Made by a program: the position numbers and the translations under genes. Below, one piece after another: positions 26,276 to 32,044 of a stretch of 33,212 nucleotides of DNA. The stretch is from an uncultured Prochlorococcus sp. (lineage in GTDB: Bacteria; Cyanobacteriota; Cyanobacteriia; PCC-6307; Cyanobiaceae). The stretch lies in the NCBI GenBank assembly GCA_902534685.1, contig CACAQP010000008.1, forward strand, positions 1-33,212. Direction: 5' to 3'. Each line of letters starts with the position of its first letter. Positions within the stretch are counted from its first letter, which is position 1. The notes below the pieces were generated by a model. The model worked only from the letters and a program-made list of their open reading frames with translations. It did no database searches and was not told the DNA's origin.

Positions 26276-28144
26276 GTGTATAAAGTTATGAAAGAAGATT
26301 TTACTGATTTTATAGAAATTTCTGGACTATTGGAATATGACCCAGAAACCATTGCTAAAATTTACAAAAAAAATCCTAAAAGACTTCTAAAAAGACTTTG
26401 GCAGACACTACTCCCTATTTTTGCGTATATCTTTTCAATTGGTTGGGATAAGTTAACTGGTAGATTAAAAAAAGAATCTCATGCAAGATTTAGAGCAAGA
26501 GAATTAACAAATTTATTAGTACAATTAGGGCCTGCATTTGTTAAAGCAGGTCAAGCTTTATCAACAAGGCCAGATATTATTCCAGGAATTCTCCTAGAGG
26601 AATTATCCGAACTACAAGATCAATTACCAGGATTTGATGGGAATAAAGCCATGGAATTAATAGAAGAAGATTTAGATTCCAAAATAGATGAAATATTTTT
26701 AGAAATTGATAGAGATCCAATTTCTGCTGCATCTTTAGGACAAGTTCACAAAGCTAAATTAAAAAATGAGGAAATTGTTGCAGTTAAAGTCCAACGCCCA
26801 GGTTTAAGAGAACAAATAACTTTAGATCTTTATATAGTTAGAAATATTGCATATTGGCTAAAAAATAATATCGGGTTGATAAGAAGTGACCTAGTGGCAT
26901 TGATAGATGAATTAGGGAAAAGAGTTTTTGAAGAAATGGATTATTTAAATGAGGCTGATAATGCTGAAAAGTTCAGAGATATGCATAAACACAACGAAAT
27001 GATTGCTGTCCCAAAAATTTATAAAGAAATTACTTCAAGGAGAGTTTTAACAATGGAATGGATCGATGGTACAAAATTAACGAATTTAGAAGATGTCAAA
27101 AAATTAGGGATCGACCCCGACAAAATGATCGATATAGGAGTGCAGTGCAGTTTAGAACAACTGTTAGAACATGGTTTTTTTCACGCTGACCCACACCCAG
27201 GAAATTTATTAGCTTTAAAAGATGGCAGATTATGTTATCTAGATTTTGGCATGATGAGTGAAGTTTCTAGAGACTCTAGATCTGGTTTAATACAAGCAGT
27301 TGTTCATCTAGTGAATAAAAACTTCGATAAATTATCTCAAGATTTTGTAAAATTAGGATTTTTATCAGAAGAAGTAAATCTCGAACCTATAGTTCCGGCA
27401 TTTCAAGATGTTTTTATTGAAGCTGTTGAACAAGGAGTTTCAAAAATGGATTTTAAGAGTGTTACAGACGACATGTCTGGTGTTATGTATAAATTTCCTT
27501 TCAAATTACCTCCATATTATGCACTTATAATTAGATCTTTACTGACATTAGAAGGAATTGCTTTAAGTGTAGACCCAAATTTCAAAATTTTAGGTGCTGC
27601 TTATCCATATTTTGCTAGACGATTAATGGAAGATCCTGATCCACAATTAAGAGAAAGTTTGAAAGAAATGCTTTTTGATAATAAAAAATTTAATTGGAGT
27701 CGTTTAGAAGATTTACTTTCTAACGCTGCAAAGCAGACGAATCTTGATTTAGAAAAACTCTTAGATGAAGTAATAAATCTTCTTTTTTCTCAAAAAGGAG
27801 GATTTCTTAGAAATGAAATAGTCGAAGGTTTAACAAATCAAATAGATTTATTTAACCTAAAATTATTAAAAAATTTAAATAATTATCTTCCAAACTCAAT
27901 TAAATTAAACATAACAGATCAAAACAACAATTTAAGTAGCCTTATAATATCTGTTGAGCCTTTTAGAAATTTTTTAGAGATTTTACAAAAAGTTCCAGGA
28001 TATTCTATTGATATTTTTCTAAAAAGAGTTCCTAGACTTATAAATGACCCTTATACAAAAGATATGGGTATTAAAATTGCTAAGAAAGTTACGGAAAAGG
28101 GAGTTGTTAGACTTGTAAAGATCGCTGCTGGTGCGAATATCTAA
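26276..28144 (+). CDS. UbiB/ABC1-family atypical kinase
   Basis: A 622-residue protein of the ABC1/ADCK/UbiB family, atypical kinases or ATPases tied to quinone and isoprenoid lipid metabolism in membranes. The signature elements are visible: KxGQ in FVKAGQALSTRPDIIP, SLGQVHKAKL following an Ala-rich loop (SAASLGQ), VAVKVQRPG with the ATP Lys, EEMDYLNEADNAEKF (ExD), HGFFHADPHPGN and the DFG motif YLDFGMMSE. A C-terminal segment (about residues 420-622) is family-extended with an amphipathic region. The GTG at 26276 has AAAGG 6 bases upstream and is favoured; ATG 26288 would lose four residues. A DUF1400-like gene starts 1 bp after its stop, and thrC follows. Confidence 0.9.
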   Translation: MYKVMKEDFTDFIEISGLLEYDPETIAKIYKKNPKRLLKRLWQTLLPIFAYIFSIGWDKLTGRLKKESHARFRARELTNLLVQLGPAFVKAGQALSTRPDIIPGILLEELSELQDQLPGFDGNKAMELIEEDLDSKIDEIFLEIDRDPISAASLGQVHKAKLKNEEIVAVKVQRPGLREQITLDLYIVRNIAYWLKNNIGLIRSDLVALIDELGKRVFEEMDYLNEADNAEKFRDMHKHNEMIAVPKIYKEITSRRVLTMEWIDGTKLTNLEDVKKLGIDPDKMIDIGVQCSLEQLLEHGFFHADPHPGNLLALKDGRLCYLDFGMMSEVSRDSRSGLIQAVVHLVNKNFDKLSQDFVKLGFLSEEVNLEPIVPAFQDVFIEAVEQGVSKMDFKSVTDDMSGVMYKFPFKLPPYYALIIRSLLTLEGIALSVDPNFKILGAAYPYFARRLMEDPDPQLRESLKEMLFDNKKFNWSRLEDLLSNAAKQTNLDLEKLLDEVINLLFSQKGGFLRNEIVEGLTNQIDLFNLKLLKNLNNYLPNSIKLNITDQNNNLSSLIISVEPFRNFLEILQKVPGYSIDIFLKRVPRLINDPYTKDMGIKIAKKVTEKGVVRLVKIAAGANI

Positions 28145-28145
28145 G

Positions 28146-28718
28146 ATGAAGTTTAGTAAATTTTTAAAATTTAAAATATTTTTTGTTTTATTAATCGCTC
28201 AATTATTTTTTAATGTTTCAAAAGTTAATGCTGCTGAAGAAATTAAAATCATATATAGCATCTTTTCTAGAACGATTAAATTAAATTCATTAAAAACTTT
28301 TGCTGAAGAAGGGAATTCAACAAGGCAATTAACAAGAATTTTTAAAGCAACTGGTTCCCCCGACAAAGAAATTAGATCAGTACTAAATAAAGAATTTGAA
28401 ATACCAATTACGATTGCAAGCAAGTTAGTCTATTCAGAGATAGGAAATGTTTTTTTAACAAGACTTTCATCTATTATTCATCCACCAAGAGCAGATGATG
28501 AAAGAACTGGAATGTTAGCTCTTAGATCCAGTGTGATTCAAGGTATAAAAATAGGAGATGGAAAAATAAATCTGATAAGATTTTTTGAAGGATATCCAAC
28601 TAAAACTATTATTTTGGATGTTAATGCTTTGAGCAAAGTTATGAATAAAGTAGAATCAATTTCAGAATTATTAGACTTTTTTACAAACTCTCCTTTGGAA
28701 AAAATTAAAACCGATTAA
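28146..28718 (+). CDS. Secreted DUF1400-like protein lacking the hydrolase domain
   Basis: A 190-residue protein. Residues 1-30 are a signal peptide (basic FKIFF region, hydrophobic VLLIAQLFF core, cleavage near VNA-AEE). The mature part matches the DUF1400 pattern of cyanobacterial alpha/beta-hydrolases: a beta-strand like [24 protein letters not shown], a middle helix [22 protein letters not shown], then [34 protein letters not shown]. In those proteins a hydrolase domain follows; here the protein ends and no catalytic Ser-Asp-His set is present. So it probably acts as a binding or adaptor domain. ATG 28146 is chosen, as it begins the signal peptide cleanly; GTG 28131 would add five residues. 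It lies between UbiB and thrC in one direction. Confidence 0.75.
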
Positions 28719-28723
28719 AAATT

Positions 28724-29827
28724 ATGGCGTTATTTAATAAACTCAAAAATAAACTACGTATCAACTATAGAAAAAAAAGATGGCCTGGTCTTATAGAAGC
28801 TTACAAACAATATCTTCCAGTCACAAAGAACACTCCTATTGTCACTCTAAATGAAGGAAATACACCTTTAATTCTAAGTGACTCAATTAGCAATTTAATT
28901 GGTAACGGAACAAAAGTTTTTTTAAAATATGATGGACTAAATCCCACGGGTTCCTTTAAAGATCGTGGAATGACTATGGCTATTAGCAAAGCAAAAGAAG
29001 AAGGCCGTGAAGCTGTGATATGTGCAAGTACAGGAAACACTTCTGCTGCTGCTGCTGCTTATGCTTCTAGAGGTGGATTAAAGCCTTATGTTTTAATCCC
29101 CGAAGGATTTGTTGCACAAGGAAAACTTGCACAAGCTTTAATGTATGGTGCCGAGATAATATCAATTAATGGAAACTTTGATAAAGCTCTAGAAATTGTT
29201 AGAGATTTATCCTCAGAACACCCAATAGAACTTGTTAATTCAGTAAATCCATATCGAATACAAGGACAAAAAACGGCAGCTTTTGAAATTATTGATGATT
29301 TAGGCGTTGCTCCTGATTGGCTTTGTATTCCAATGGGGAATGCAGGAAATATAACAGCTTATTGGTTAGGATTTAAAGAATATTCAAAGATGAAAAAGAA
29401 TTTAAAATTACCAATCATGATGGGCTTTCAATCTGAAGGATCAGCTCCATTAGTGCAAAATATAATAGTTAAAAATCCGGAAACAATCGCAACTGCAATA
29501 AGAATTGGGAATCCTGTCAATAGAGAAAAAGCCAAAAAAGTTAAAAAAGAAAGTAATGGAGACTTTCAATCAGTAACAGATAATGAGATAATCAATGCCT
29601 ATAAAATCCTCGCTAAAGAAGGTGTATTTTGTGAACCTGCAAGTGCAGCATCAGTTGCAGGACTGATTAAAAATAAAAATAGAATTCAAAAAGAATCAAC
29701 TATTGTTTGTGTTCTTACCGGAAATGGATTAAAAGACCCGGATTGCGCTATTGACAATAATGAAGCTGTTTTTAGAAGGAATATTGAACCATCATTAAAA
29801 AATATTACTAAAATTTTAGGATATTGA
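28724..29827 (+). CDS. thrC: Threonine synthase
   Basis: PLP enzyme converting O-phosphohomoserine to threonine. The 367 residues have the fold-type II core: GNTPLILSD near residue 45, [16 protein letters not shown] with the Schiff-base Lys79, [19 protein letters not shown] (the phosphate-cradle 'STGN' block), and [28 protein letters not shown], and C-terminal TGNGLKDPD. Only the bacterial/plant-type domain without an N-terminal ACT-like extension is present, and length is typical of the short cyanobacterial form. It starts 5 bp after the DUF1400-like gene, so the UbiB, DUF1400-like and thrC genes probably form one transcription unit. The stop is followed by the 347-bp region argued here to be the replication origin. 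Confidence 0.96.
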
Positions 29828-29847
29828 AATCCAAAATAATTAGTGTC

Positions 29848-29856
29848 TGTGGAAAT
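29848..29856 (-). promoter_or_regulatory. DnaA box-like site 1
   Basis: TGTGGAAAT on + reads ATTTCCACA on -, one mismatch from the cyanobacterial-type TTTTCCACA box. It is the only box here in the reverse orientation and lies 21 bp after the thrC stop. Confidence 0.5.
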
Positions 29857-29922
29857 CAGATAAAACCAATTTTCTTTTGTTAAAAAATATATAAAAATAA
29901 ATTAAATTTGTTTAATAAATAA

Positions 29923-29943
29923 TTTAAATTTCAAAAATTTAAA
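29923..29943. repeat. AT-only inverted repeat in the origin region
   Basis: TTTAAATTT-CAA-AAATTTAAA, perfect 9-bp arms with a 3-base centre. It may help melting or form a cruciform; it could also be chance in such AT-rich DNA. Confidence 0.35.
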
Positions 29944-29966
29944 ATTATCTAACAAAAAGAATTTTT

Positions 29967-29975
29967 TTTTCCACC
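29967..29975 (+). promoter_or_regulatory. DnaA box-like site 2
   Basis: TTTTCCACC, one mismatch from TTTTCCACA, at the end of a nine-T run. It is immediately followed by an inverted repeat (29976-29995). Confidence 0.4.
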
Positions 29976-29995
29976 AGTTTAATTCTTCTTAAACT
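29976..29995. repeat. Inverted repeat in the origin region
   Basis: AGTTTAA-TTCTTC-TTAAACT, perfect 7-bp arms and a 6-base loop, located between DnaA box 2 and boxes 3/4. It might be a structural spacer or a terminator-like hairpin protecting the origin from thrC transcripts; no T-run follows. Confidence 0.35.
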
Positions 29996-30020
29996 AAGTT
30001 AGAAAGTAATTAAAGTGCAA

Positions 30021-30038
30021 TAATCCACAGTTTCCACA
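30021..30038 (+). promoter_or_regulatory. Two abutting DnaA box-like sites (3 and 4)
   Basis: TAATCCACA (30021-30029) is one mismatch from TTATCCACA, and GTTTCCACA (30030-30038) is one mismatch from TTTTCCACA. They are directly adjacent, with no spacer, in the same orientation and point toward the trio repeats. Two adjacent co-oriented boxes next to trios is the layout expected of a basal origin-unwinding module. Confidence 0.6.
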
Positions 30039-30039
30039 G

Positions 30040-30054
30040 TTACTATTACTACTA
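30040..30054 (+). promoter_or_regulatory. DnaA-trio-type repeat
   Basis: TTA-CTA-TTA-CTA-CTA: five consecutive triplets whose complement, read 3'-5', is AAT or GAT, fitting the DnaA-trio rule 3'-[G/A]A[T/A]-5'. The run starts one base after DnaA box 4 and leads straight into TTTTTTT-AATATATATATA. In bacteria where it is characterised, a DnaA filament grows from the boxes onto these triplets and opens the strands. Confidence 0.6.
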
Positions 30055-30174
30055 ATTTTTTTAATATATATATACTAAATAATTAGAATTAGAAATTAAA
30101 ATCATTTCTTGAATTTAATTTACGAAAAAAGTATATTGTGTATATAAAGTTCAAGTATTAAATCCCAAGTCCCA

Positions 30175-31335
30175 ATGGAGATTATTTGTAATCAAAATGA
30201 ATTAAATAATGCTATACAACTAGTAAGTAAAGCAGTAGCATCAAGACCAACTCATCCCATTCTTGCGAATATACTTTTAACTGCCGATGAAGGAACTAAT
30301 AAAATTAGTTTGACAGGTTTTGATCTGAATTTAGGTATTCAAACTTCTTTCGATGGAACTGTAAAAAACAGTGGCGCTATTACGGTACCTTCAAAACTTT
30401 TATCTGAAATAGTAAATAAATTACCTAACGAAACGCCCGTCTTACTAGTAGTAGATGGCGATTCAGATAATGTTTTAATCAAAAGTGATAGAGGTTCTTT
30501 TAATCTAAAAGGAATACCCTCTGATGATTATCCTAATTTGCCATTTGTTGAAAGCGGAACTTCTTTAAATATTGAGCCTAGTTCTTTTTTAAAAGCTTTG
30601 AAGTTTACTATTTTTGCTAGTAGTAATGACGAGTCCAAGCAATTACTTACAGGGGTCAATTTTACTTTTAAACAAAATTATTTAGAGTCTGCGTCTACAG
30701 ATGGCCATAGATTGGCGGTTGCTTTAATTGGTAACGAAGAAAATATAGGAAATAAAGATAACATATCTCAAAGTGAGGGTGATAATTTATCAGTTACTAT
30801 TCCAACTAGGTCATTAAGAGAAATTGAAAAACTAGTAACTTTAAAAAGCACAGAAAATTCAATAAAGCTTTTTTATGACAAAGGTCAAGTCGTTTTTATA
30901 TCTTCTAATCAAATAATTACAACAAGAACTCTTGAAGGCACCTATCCTAATTATTCACAATTAATTCCAGATACTTTTTCGAAAATTTTTAATTTTAATA
31001 CTAAAAAGTTAATTGATGCATTAGAAAGAATTGCTATTTTGGCTGATCAGCAGAGTAGTGTAGTTAAATTTGCATTAGATGATTCAGATTTGGCTTCAAT
31101 AAGTGCAGATGCACAAGATATAGGTAATGCAAATGAATCTATTCCTGTTTCCTATTCTGGAGAAAATTTTGATATTGCATTTAATGTTAGATACCTCTTG
31201 GAAGGTTTAAAAGTTATTGCTAGTGAAAATGTACTTTTAAAGTGTAATATTGCAACTACTCCAGCTGTTTTTGTTCCAGAAGACAATCTTAATTCTTTTA
31301 CTTATCTCGTAATGCCTGTTCAGGTTCGTTCTTAA
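30175..31335 (+). CDS. dnaN: DNA polymerase III beta subunit (sliding clamp)
   Basis: Ring-shaped dimer that tethers polymerase III to DNA. The 386 residues (E. coli 366) span three clamp domains. The N-terminal domain has MEIICNQNELNNAIQLVSKAVASRPTHPILANILL with the conserved PTHPIL, and FDLNLGI; the middle contains STDGHRLAVALI and IPTRSLREIEKL; the C-terminal domain contains LEGTYPNY, ILADQQSSVVKF, NVRYLLEGLKVI and ends in TYLVMPVQVRS, equivalent to the VMPMR(L) end that lines the protein-binding pocket. Compared with E. coli it has an acidic/Asn insert (ENIGNKDNISQSEGDN). It starts 120 bp after the trio repeats, with no SD, and is followed after 1 bp by the PRC-barrel gene. Confidence 0.97.
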   Translation: MEIICNQNELNNAIQLVSKAVASRPTHPILANILLTADEGTNKISLTGFDLNLGIQTSFDGTVKNSGAITVPSKLLSEIVNKLPNETPVLLVVDGDSDNVLIKSDRGSFNLKGIPSDDYPNLPFVESGTSLNIEPSSFLKALKFTIFASSNDESKQLLTGVNFTFKQNYLESASTDGHRLAVALIGNEENIGNKDNISQSEGDNLSVTIPTRSLREIEKLVTLKSTENSIKLFYDKGQVVFISSNQIITTRTLEGTYPNYSQLIPDTFSKIFNFNTKKLIDALERIAILADQQSSVVKFALDDSDLASISADAQDIGNANESIPVSYSGENFDIAFNVRYLLEGLKVIASENVLLKCNIATTPAVFVPEDNLNSFTYLVMPVQVRS

Positions 31336-31336
31336 G

Positions 31337-32044
31337 TTGAAACTACCTCACACAATTTTATTAAGTGAATTACTAAATTATAATGTTAAGGGTAATAAGG
31401 CCTTAAATTATGGGAATGGTGAAAGTGTTTGGATGCATCCTCCCGTTCATCGTATTTTAGGATGGTACTCTCGTCCTTCAAATTTTGATTTAAAGCGAAA
31501 TGTTTGGAGACTAAATCAAATTAGTCAAATAATAGATAATGAAATTTATGTTCAAGGTGATCCTGCAATTTCTGATTTAGCAACTTTAAATAGGTTTCCA
31601 ACTTTAATAGAAGCTAATTTGATTAATATAAAAGGCTCCAAAATTGGAGTGATAGCAGATTTTTTGTTTGAAATGAGAACTGGTCAAATTAAATATTATT
31701 TAGTTTCTCGAGCGAATCCTAAGATTCCAGGTTCTAGTAGATGGAAATTAAATATTGAAAATATAAATGATCAACAACCTGGTCTAGTTTTCTGTGATAA
31801 AAACTCTTTAGAAGATTTAATTTTAGTAAAGTCAAGTATTAAAAATGAATTTTTACAAAAAGGACAAAAAATTATTGATAAATTTGATCAAATGAAAAAT
31901 ATAGCTTCAAATAGACTAGAGGATTGGCTTGAAGAAGATGAAGATATAAACCAAAACTTAGATTTTCAACAAAAAAGTTTTTATAATGATAAAAGAATAT
32001 CAAGATCTTCTACTGACAAAAGAGAAGATGACCCTTGGATTTAA
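31337..32044 (+). CDS. PRC-barrel domain protein, unknown role
   Basis: A 235-residue protein of unknown function. A central PRC-barrel-like segment is recognisable: NIKGSKIGVIADFLFEMRTGQIKYYLVSRANP (about residues 98-129), the 'G..iG.v.dl..d..tG.i.y..v' pattern. The N-terminal part has WMHPPVHRILGWYSRPSNFDLKRNVWRLNQI; an upstream repeat-like PAISDLATLNRFP could be a second, degenerate barrel. The C-terminal 60 residues are acidic and Lys-rich and end EDDPWI. In other proteins PRC barrels bind RNA (RimM) or sit in photosystem/membrane proteins; neither can be claimed here. The start is a TTG with no SD, one base after dnaN, and purL starts 3 bp after the stop, so translation is probably coupled across the three genes. 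Confidence 0.75.
   Translation: MKLPHTILLSELLNYNVKGNKALNYGNGESVWMHPPVHRILGWYSRPSNFDLKRNVWRLNQISQIIDNEIYVQGDPAISDLATLNRFPTLIEANLINIKGSKIGVIADFLFEMRTGQIKYYLVSRANPKIPGSSRWKLNIENINDQQPGLVFCDKNSLEDLILVKSSIKNEFLQKGQKIIDKFDQMKNIASNRLEDWLEEDEDINQNLDFQQKSFYNDKRISRSSTDKREDDPWI

Follow-up and report, generated by a model that had tools for sequence, protein, structure and literature searches.

In bacterial origins with a basal unwinding system (BUS), a DnaA filament starts at the DnaA boxes and forms on 3'-GAT-5' trios, and such modules have been predicted in 1755 of 2070 origins (PMC8287927). The rule used in that work accepts a box with at most two mismatches, or a pair of boxes (with two and four), followed by a spacer of 0-16 nt whose lengths peak at 10-13 nt. 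The same study describes in vitro unwinding by S. elongatus DnaA of the box-trio scaffold of that species, for which both the boxes and the trios are required. In cryo-EM, neighboring DnaA proteins hold two bases of every trio between them, with Asn187 reading the central A; in B. subtilis trios, C can replace this A in vitro, and in vivo C is the best of the three substitutes, G and T being worse (PMC10721633). Loss of Asn187, Ile190, Ile193, Arg202, or Glu228 cripples the strand-capture site of B. subtilis DnaA (PMC8287927; PMC10721633). Most of the 68 cyanobacterial origins listed in one survey adjoin dnaN (PMC4674748), and oriC of Prochlorococcus has been described as flanked by dnaN and the threonine synthase gene, as judged from GC skew, gene neighbors, and DnaA boxes (PMC2836286). 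Both the position of this origin (PMC2836286) and the module type (PMC8287927) are already in print; what the sequence comparison presented here appears to add is the exact register, its conservation across the class, the natural occurrence of trios with a central C (C-trios), and an element on the far side of the A/T tract.

The probable opening module in the thrC-dnaN gap

The stretch of DNA that we analyzed (33,212 nucleotides, hereafter the window) makes up contig 8 of a Prochlorococcus-type draft genome that comprises 918,560 bases in 63 contigs and is 55.5% complete. Its closest named relatives are Prochlorococcus, with dnaN sequences 80-92% identical among the best 80 of 565 confirmed loci; these 80 are titled Prochlorococcus or, in a few cases, uncultured Synechococcaceae, and include no named marine Synechococcus origins. 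Two open reading frames, one beside dnaN (31337-32044, 235 aa) and one beside thrC (28131-28718, 195 aa), had no match in NCBIfam. A preliminary description of the locus had remarked on the absence of dnaA, and this gene indeed lies on a different contig from dnaN in the draft genome. In two complete relatives, G050 (chromosome of 1.78 Mb) and G108 (1.67 Mb), the distance between dnaA and dnaN is approximately 533 and 542 kb, respectively.

Table 1. Features in and around the thrC-dnaN gap (positions are those of the window)
Feature	Position	Strand	Basis or conservation
thrC (threonine synthase), upstream of origin	28724-29827	+	NCBIfam TIGR00260, 321 bits (cut-off 167.1)
thrC-dnaN gap, 347 bp, probable oriC	29828-30174		Gene ends; conserved boxes and trios; skew turn in relatives
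Upstream DnaA box, ATTTCCACA	29848-29856	-	173 nt before box 1; at most one mismatch in 97/100 genus genomes
Upstream box-like site, TTTTTAACA	29878-29886	-	143 nt before box 1; at most one mismatch in 83/100 genus genomes
Upstream DnaA box, TTTTCCACC	29967-29975	+	54 nt before box 1; at most one mismatch in 94/100 genus genomes
Tandem DnaA box 1, TAATCCACA	30021-30029	+	Last six bases 98-100% conserved, 103 genus genomes
Tandem DnaA box 2, GTTTCCACA	30030-30038	+	Last five bases 96-100% conserved, 103 genus genomes
Spacer, GTTA	30039-30042		Length fixed at 4 nt; letters vary among relatives
Four DnaA-trios, CTA TTA CTA CTA	30043-30054	+	Genus alignment
A/T tract, presumed unwinding element	30055-30080		Sequence; A/T only at 30053-30074
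Conserved island, AATTAGAAT (genus consensus TATTAGAAA)	30081-30089	-	Columns 30081-30088 89-98% conserved
Putative dnaN promoter, TTGAAT-17-TATATT	30109-30137	+	Consensus match; hexamer columns 83-100% conserved in genus
dnaN (DNA polymerase III beta clamp)	30175-31335	+	NCBIfam TIGR00663, 330 bits (cut-off 137.65)

The features of the locus are collected in Table 1. The letters and coordinates of the preliminary description were correct throughout: two abutting boxes at 30021-30038, a G at 30039, the triplets TTA CTA TTA CTA CTA at 30040-30054, an A/T-only tract behind them (which extends to 30074), and further boxes at 29848 and 29967, both of which proved to be conserved in the genus. A third conserved upstream site, at 29878-29886, was missing from its list. 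Its register, a single spacer base followed by five trios, did not hold: across 103 relatives, the first TTA (30040-30042) falls in a spacer of constant length and variable letters, and we therefore read 30039-30042 as a 4-nt spacer followed by four trios, a register that starts three bases later in the same frame. The trio strand is the minus strand, with the sequence 3'-GAT AAT GAT GAT-5'. Among relatives in the genus, the A/T tract is T-rich and its conservation is lower. Conservation of the upstream sites was scored in 100 genus genomes as a box with at most one mismatch, at the same position with a tolerance of 8 nt either way; these sites, at -54, -143, and -173, are probably accessory DnaA sites.

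In its sequence features, the module agrees with the published BUS type. Each box has one mismatch to TTWTNCACA (relative to TTATCCACA, box 1 has one and box 2 has two); the first trio lies 4 nt from box 2 and 13 nt from box 1; the conserved register offers four trios with a central A on the trio strand, where at least three are asked for; and A/T-only sequence continues beyond them. The tandem pair and the three conserved upstream sites form a box cluster of the oriC type, and the location at an origin comes from the skew of relatives (below) and the literature. When aligned with the B. subtilis DnaA whose structure has been solved (411 bits), the DnaA protein of the same draft genome retains Asn187, Ile190, Ile193, Arg202, and Glu228, i.e., the equivalents of all the strand-capture residues, as well as the arginine finger, Arg264 (B. 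subtilis numbering).

As this DnaA keeps the capture residues, we infer from the BUS literature, with high confidence, that the same mechanism applies to the window. Judging from the homologous systems of B. subtilis and S. elongatus, (i) two DnaA molecules would dock on the abutting boxes; (ii) a filament would grow from there across the fixed 4-nt spacer onto the minus strand; (iii) neighboring protomers would capture the first two bases (of the 3'-GA-5' type) of each trio; and (iv) this capture would stretch the strand, so that the A/T tract opens and helicase can be loaded. Two forks would then depart in opposite directions, with dnaN as the first gene on one side, and the opened region may end, on its far side, at the inverted island at 30081-30089.

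The whole-genome skew proposed as a check was read in 20 sampled stretches per chromosome of two complete relatives. GC skew switched from negative values before dnaN to positive ones after it, and the cumulative GC skew, whether raw or detrended, reached its minimum at dnaN in both; the detrended maximum fell near mid-chromosome, and the signs were mixed in the middle of both chromosomes. Purine skew, which had been suggested alongside, showed no turn at dnaN in these stretches, and local skew within the window was noisy. Conservation, the GC skew of relatives, and the published position of oriC all support the original reading of the locus as an origin-unwinding module: the thrC-dnaN gap is very probably the chromosomal origin, and 30021-30080 very probably its DnaA-driven opening site, of the BUS kind. 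Since the place of oriC is in print and BUS unwinding has been shown with S. elongatus DnaA, the module is to be regarded as a further case of a known type.

Conservation of the arrangement and alternative readings

A search of 151 genomes of the genus yielded 118 with dnaN and 107 upstream regions that could be read, the others having a contig that starts at dnaN (seven) or a partial dnaN (four); 104 of these regions were long enough (at least 160 nt upstream of dnaN), and three were too short. The order box-box-4 nt-CTA triplets was found in 103 of the 104, G080 being the sole genome that lacks the module; in G124, the boxes are displaced by one base relative to each other. Trio 1 was CTA in all 103 genomes, trio 2 was CTA in 101 and TTA in two (the window among them), trio 3 was CTA in 94, ATA in four, and TTA in two, with the central A lost on the trio strand in three, and trio 4 was CTA in 94, TTA in eight, and ATA in one, counts whose conservation is somewhat inflated because the script that locates the module rewards CTA.

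For cyanobacteria outside the genus, we combined 81 genomes of the family and 60 of the class (the two sets overlap), scanned 94, and excluded four of the same genus. Of the remaining 90, 78 exceeded the 99.5% point of shuffled sequence for the box-box-4-CTA score, namely 42 of the same family and 36 of other families (with G275 having boxes without CTA trios). The box-box-4-trio spacing was kept even where dnaN is 200-640 nt distant, and in G264 and G234, in which dnaA is directly upstream of dnaN, the module lies between the two genes. Among the 12 genomes below the threshold, G192 is truncated, G258 has a misplaced start, and G153, G180, and G200 carry degraded versions; nothing clear was seen in the others. 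Named loci gave a similar picture, with 78 of 79 usable ones passing the module score, in a set that overlaps the other scanned genomes; in the one that failed, L270, the boxes are shifted by one base. An alignment of relatives had been called for as a check on the boxes and the trio register, and both are kept. The presence of the arrangement in the genus and in other families suggests that it is old in cyanobacteria.

Three genomes of one family group (G168, G214, and G225, with loci L123, L125, and L121) retain only two canonical trios, CTACTACGGCTG; in these, an inverted repeat, GGCTGTTTT/AAAACAGCC, flanks the A/T tract upstream of dnaN.

Two readings would deny the module its role in unwinding. 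According to one, the arrangement is a chance product of AT-rich intergenic DNA, and some of the counts point that way: single boxes with at most one mismatch were as frequent in the window (115) as in shuffled sequence (122), and a lenient rule patterned on the published one (a box with at most two mismatches and, no more than 16 nt away, three NTN triplets) gave 124 matches, as compared to 122 in shuffles, and is thus without weight in DNA this rich in A and T. The boxes of the window are not perfect copies of TTWTCCACA, of which 21 occur elsewhere in the draft genome (26 for the reversed control). The full arrangement (two abutting boxes, a spacer of at most 6 nt, and four [CT]T[AT] triplets), however, occurred once in the window and in none of 60 dinucleotide shuffles, and the core pattern matched once in the 918,560 bases of the genome, its reversed control not at all. 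In the genus, the strict pattern was found exactly once in 71 of 88 genomes and was absent from the other 17, the reversed control giving 0 of 88; of the five misses inspected, four (G039, G136, G025, and G094) have degenerate boxes and one (G072) is at a contig end. The uniqueness of the arrangement in its own genome and its absence from the shuffles rule out a chance origin, and the conservation of letters and spacing across relatives counts as its refutation; we give this reading practically no credence. The other reading holds that the dnaN promoter is regulated through these boxes and triplets, on which DnaA acts as a transcription factor, with no unwinding site. The promoter-like match of Table 1, with its conserved columns, would fit this, but such matches were no commoner in the region than in shuffles, and the constant internal spacing of the module at distant dnaN genes speaks against a plain dnaN promoter region. 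The turn of GC skew at dnaN in two relatives and a pattern of trio variation largely consistent with nucleobase capture (see below) point in the same direction, making the purely regulatory reading very improbable. Regulation and unwinding are compatible, and the two roles can coexist at one site.

Natural variation in the trios and in DnaA

All 42 family genomes (Cyanobiaceae) from outside the genus keep the 3' G at each of the four trios. The central base in the 24 family genomes with GC-rich flanks was A in 59 trios, C in 33, G in three, and T in one (n = 96), counts that, the genomes being related, do not represent independent events; in the flanks of these 24 genomes, G and C were alike on the top strand (396 vs. 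346). Two observations speak against a simple reading in terms of base capture. Outside the family, trio 4 had a central G in three and a central C in three of 35 cyanobacteria. The third base of the trio, which is free in the capture model, was also conserved: it was T at every trio in 103 of 103 genus genomes and, in the family, at trios 1-3 in 40, 39, and 35 of 42 genomes, with trio 4 drifting (C in 29 of 42).

Of 250 family genomes, 38, distributed over nine of 37 genera, matched a pattern with a central C in trio 2 (13 of 250 for the reversed control). In the 17 of these 38 for which the place of dnaN is known, all matches were at most 200 nt upstream of that gene. Top-strand CGA or CGG triplets alternate with CTA in G160, G170, G193, G201, and G215 (loci L177, L182, L175, L184, and L178, respectively). 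The trio-reading Asn of DnaA was kept in eight C-trio genomes (G160, G170, G201, G215, G193, G158, G177, and G167), a count that excludes G264, G234, G261, and G235 and includes G167 by virtue of the C in its trio 2. GC-rich picocyanobacteria carry trios in which C stands in place of the central A, an exchange that is functional in B. subtilis. A literature search covering titles and the beginnings of abstracts found no description of natural C-trios in cyanobacteria, and the observation appears to be new. Given these natural C-trios, origins of GC-rich lineages can escape search rules that insist on a central A.

Within Prochlorococcus, the reader of the trio itself varies. In 18 of 32 DnaA proteins, Ser replaces the trio-reading Asn, such that these proteins read FSSD instead of FTND (L329, L330, and L358-L373); the protein belonging to the window has Asn. 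A trio without the central A was present in four of the 18 Ser genomes, as compared to none of the 14 Asn genomes (Fisher p = 0.11, 32 read; for one Ser genome, G299, the trios were taken from the strict-pattern scan). When the 103 aligned genomes were divided into 19 hand-listed divergent ones and 84 others, such trios occurred in three of the former and none of the latter (p = 0.005). DnaA was read in 18 of the divergent set (17 with Ser and one, G107, with Asn; G123 had no DnaA match) and in a minority of the 84. Because the divergent set follows phylogeny, the possible link between Ser-type DnaA and trios lacking the central A should be taken as no more than a lead.

The far side of the A/T tract and comparison with known systems

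The conserved island beyond the A/T tract (Table 1), whose flanks are mostly less conserved in the genus alignment, reads on its complement as an inverted trio facing the tract, and 30077-30086 pairs imperfectly with 30052-30061. Of the 103 genus genomes, 94 have the motif [AT]TAGA 15-65 nt beyond trio 4; the most divergent rows, e.g., G107 and G134, have TATTGAAAA aligned at the island. The 60 nt that follow trio 4 hold an excess of inverted trio-type runs (z = 9.3 in 82 class and family genomes and 12.9 in the genus), z values inflated by the relatedness of the genomes and obtained with motif weights selected after viewing the sequences. Controls gave, for the same two sets, -0.2 and -4.8 with the motif read backwards, 2.7 and 1.9 in the trio orientation, 2.4 and 2.7 for the complement, and 0.1 and -4.0 in the following 60 nt. 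A conserved inverted element of the TTAGA/TAGAAG type delimits the far side of the tract; we found no report of it in print, and it may be new.

In many cyanobacteria outside the genus, the corresponding site and the trios form a dyad. Defining the left arm as the trios plus the next bases and the right arm as the far-side element, we found higher complementarity within than between genomes (7.78 vs. 6.74; 0 of 5000 permutations, 78 non-genus genomes); the family alone likewise gave 0 of 5000, and the 36 other cyanobacteria gave p = 0.029. Relative to shuffled right arms, z was 8.7 in the family (12 of 42 genomes above the 95% point) and 6.4 in the others (six of 36), and letters in the two arms change in pairs, e.g., CTACGGGT/ACCCGTAG. 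Within Prochlorococcus, the dyad gave no signal (permutation p = 0.99; z = 0.0 for shuffled arms). In a search for a possible complete second, inverted box-trio module on the far side, inverted DnaA boxes 20-90 nt after trio 4 were not clearly enriched in the family (z = 0.6) or the genus (z = 0.8), and in the other cyanobacteria z was 2.1, with eight of 35 above the 95% point; at 90-160 nt, z was 5.4 in the family, from the only seven genomes that are long enough, and -0.3 in the others (n = 19).

The sequence GCTTCCACA, which resembles an inverted DnaA box, lies between the module and dnaN in, e.g., G193 (L175) and G224 (L169); it stands 74-117 nt beyond trio 4 in 13 of the 42 family genomes and in none of the 36 others. 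Upstream of dnaN in G271 (L203), the CTA trios have opposite them, beyond a short A/T tract, five perfect TAG repeats in inverted orientation; the arms are 15 bp long and contain one mismatch.

These patterns raise the possibility that opening is two-sided, the far-side element working as an inverted trio, as a hairpin or dyad arm in the opened top strand, or as a site for a second protein. Enrichment of the inverted runs would be expected in that case, as would arms that co-vary and that are complementary within genomes beyond both mismatched pairs and shuffled arms. The evidence from the arms comes from outside the genus, however; in Prochlorococcus only the TATTAGAAA island is conserved, with no dyad signal. 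The enrichment rests on post hoc weights and related genomes, with two control motifs at z = 1.9-2.7, a GC content shared by both arms can raise the within-genome excess, inverted boxes 20-90 nt after trio 4 show no clear enrichment, and in the window a promoter-like TTAATA-17-TAGAAT overlaps the island. On balance we consider two-sided opening possible, if somewhat unlikely. Combining the above, one may speculate that cyanobacterial origins are two-sided, with the box-trio filament opening them from the left, that a far-edge inverted trio or dyad arm (TATTAGAAA in Prochlorococcus; of the TAGAAG/TAGTAG or CAGCC type elsewhere) provides the other strand with a docking signal so that two helicases can be loaded without a DnaD-type protein, that C-trios are a natural working code in GC-rich picocyanobacteria, and that the Ser clade tolerates trios lacking the central A; we regard this joint proposal as doubtful.

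The probable opening site brings a predicted Prochlorococcus origin to base-level resolution and makes it accessible to a small in vitro assay. The natural variants in relatives agree with much of what is known about the grip of DnaA on DNA, and the picocyanobacterial pattern (3' G fixed, central A or C) lets the cryo-EM model of trio capture be checked independently. Should the far-side element prove functional, it would bear on two-strand helicase loading in bacteria other than B. subtilis.

Compared with the BUS of B. subtilis (boxes 6/7 plus trios), the module has the same order and orientation, tandem boxes, 3'-GAT-5' trios, an A/T tract beyond them, and a DnaA whose base-capturing residues are conserved; unlike it, the conserved register holds four trios rather than six, dnaA is elsewhere in the genome, and an inverted island lies on the far side. 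The S. elongatus module, set beside it by description, is from the same phylum, and the box-trio unwinding demonstrated in vitro is that of S. elongatus DnaA (PMC8287927). Like other cyanobacterial origins, e.g., that of Cyanothece, the locus is next to dnaN (PMC4674748); the cyanobacterial consensus box given there is TTTTCCACA, whereas box 1 is AATTCCACA in 70 of 103 genus genomes. The published Prochlorococcus oriC is at the same place, in a passage that does not extend to trios, spacing, or a far-side element (PMC2836286). In oriC of Thermotoga maritima, the modular unwinding element includes TAG repeats (eTrio) that are essential; these sit on the trio strand, with the annotated trios on one side and a TTATT motif on the other, and are not an inverted far-side arm (PMC10316083). 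Among the literature searched, the idea closest to the far-side element is the B. subtilis DnaD Recognition Element, likewise a second-strand signal in the unwinding region and proposed to serve loading of the second helicase (PMC10201434); that element is the strand opposite the trios, whereas the one described here lies beyond the A/T tract, in inverted orientation.
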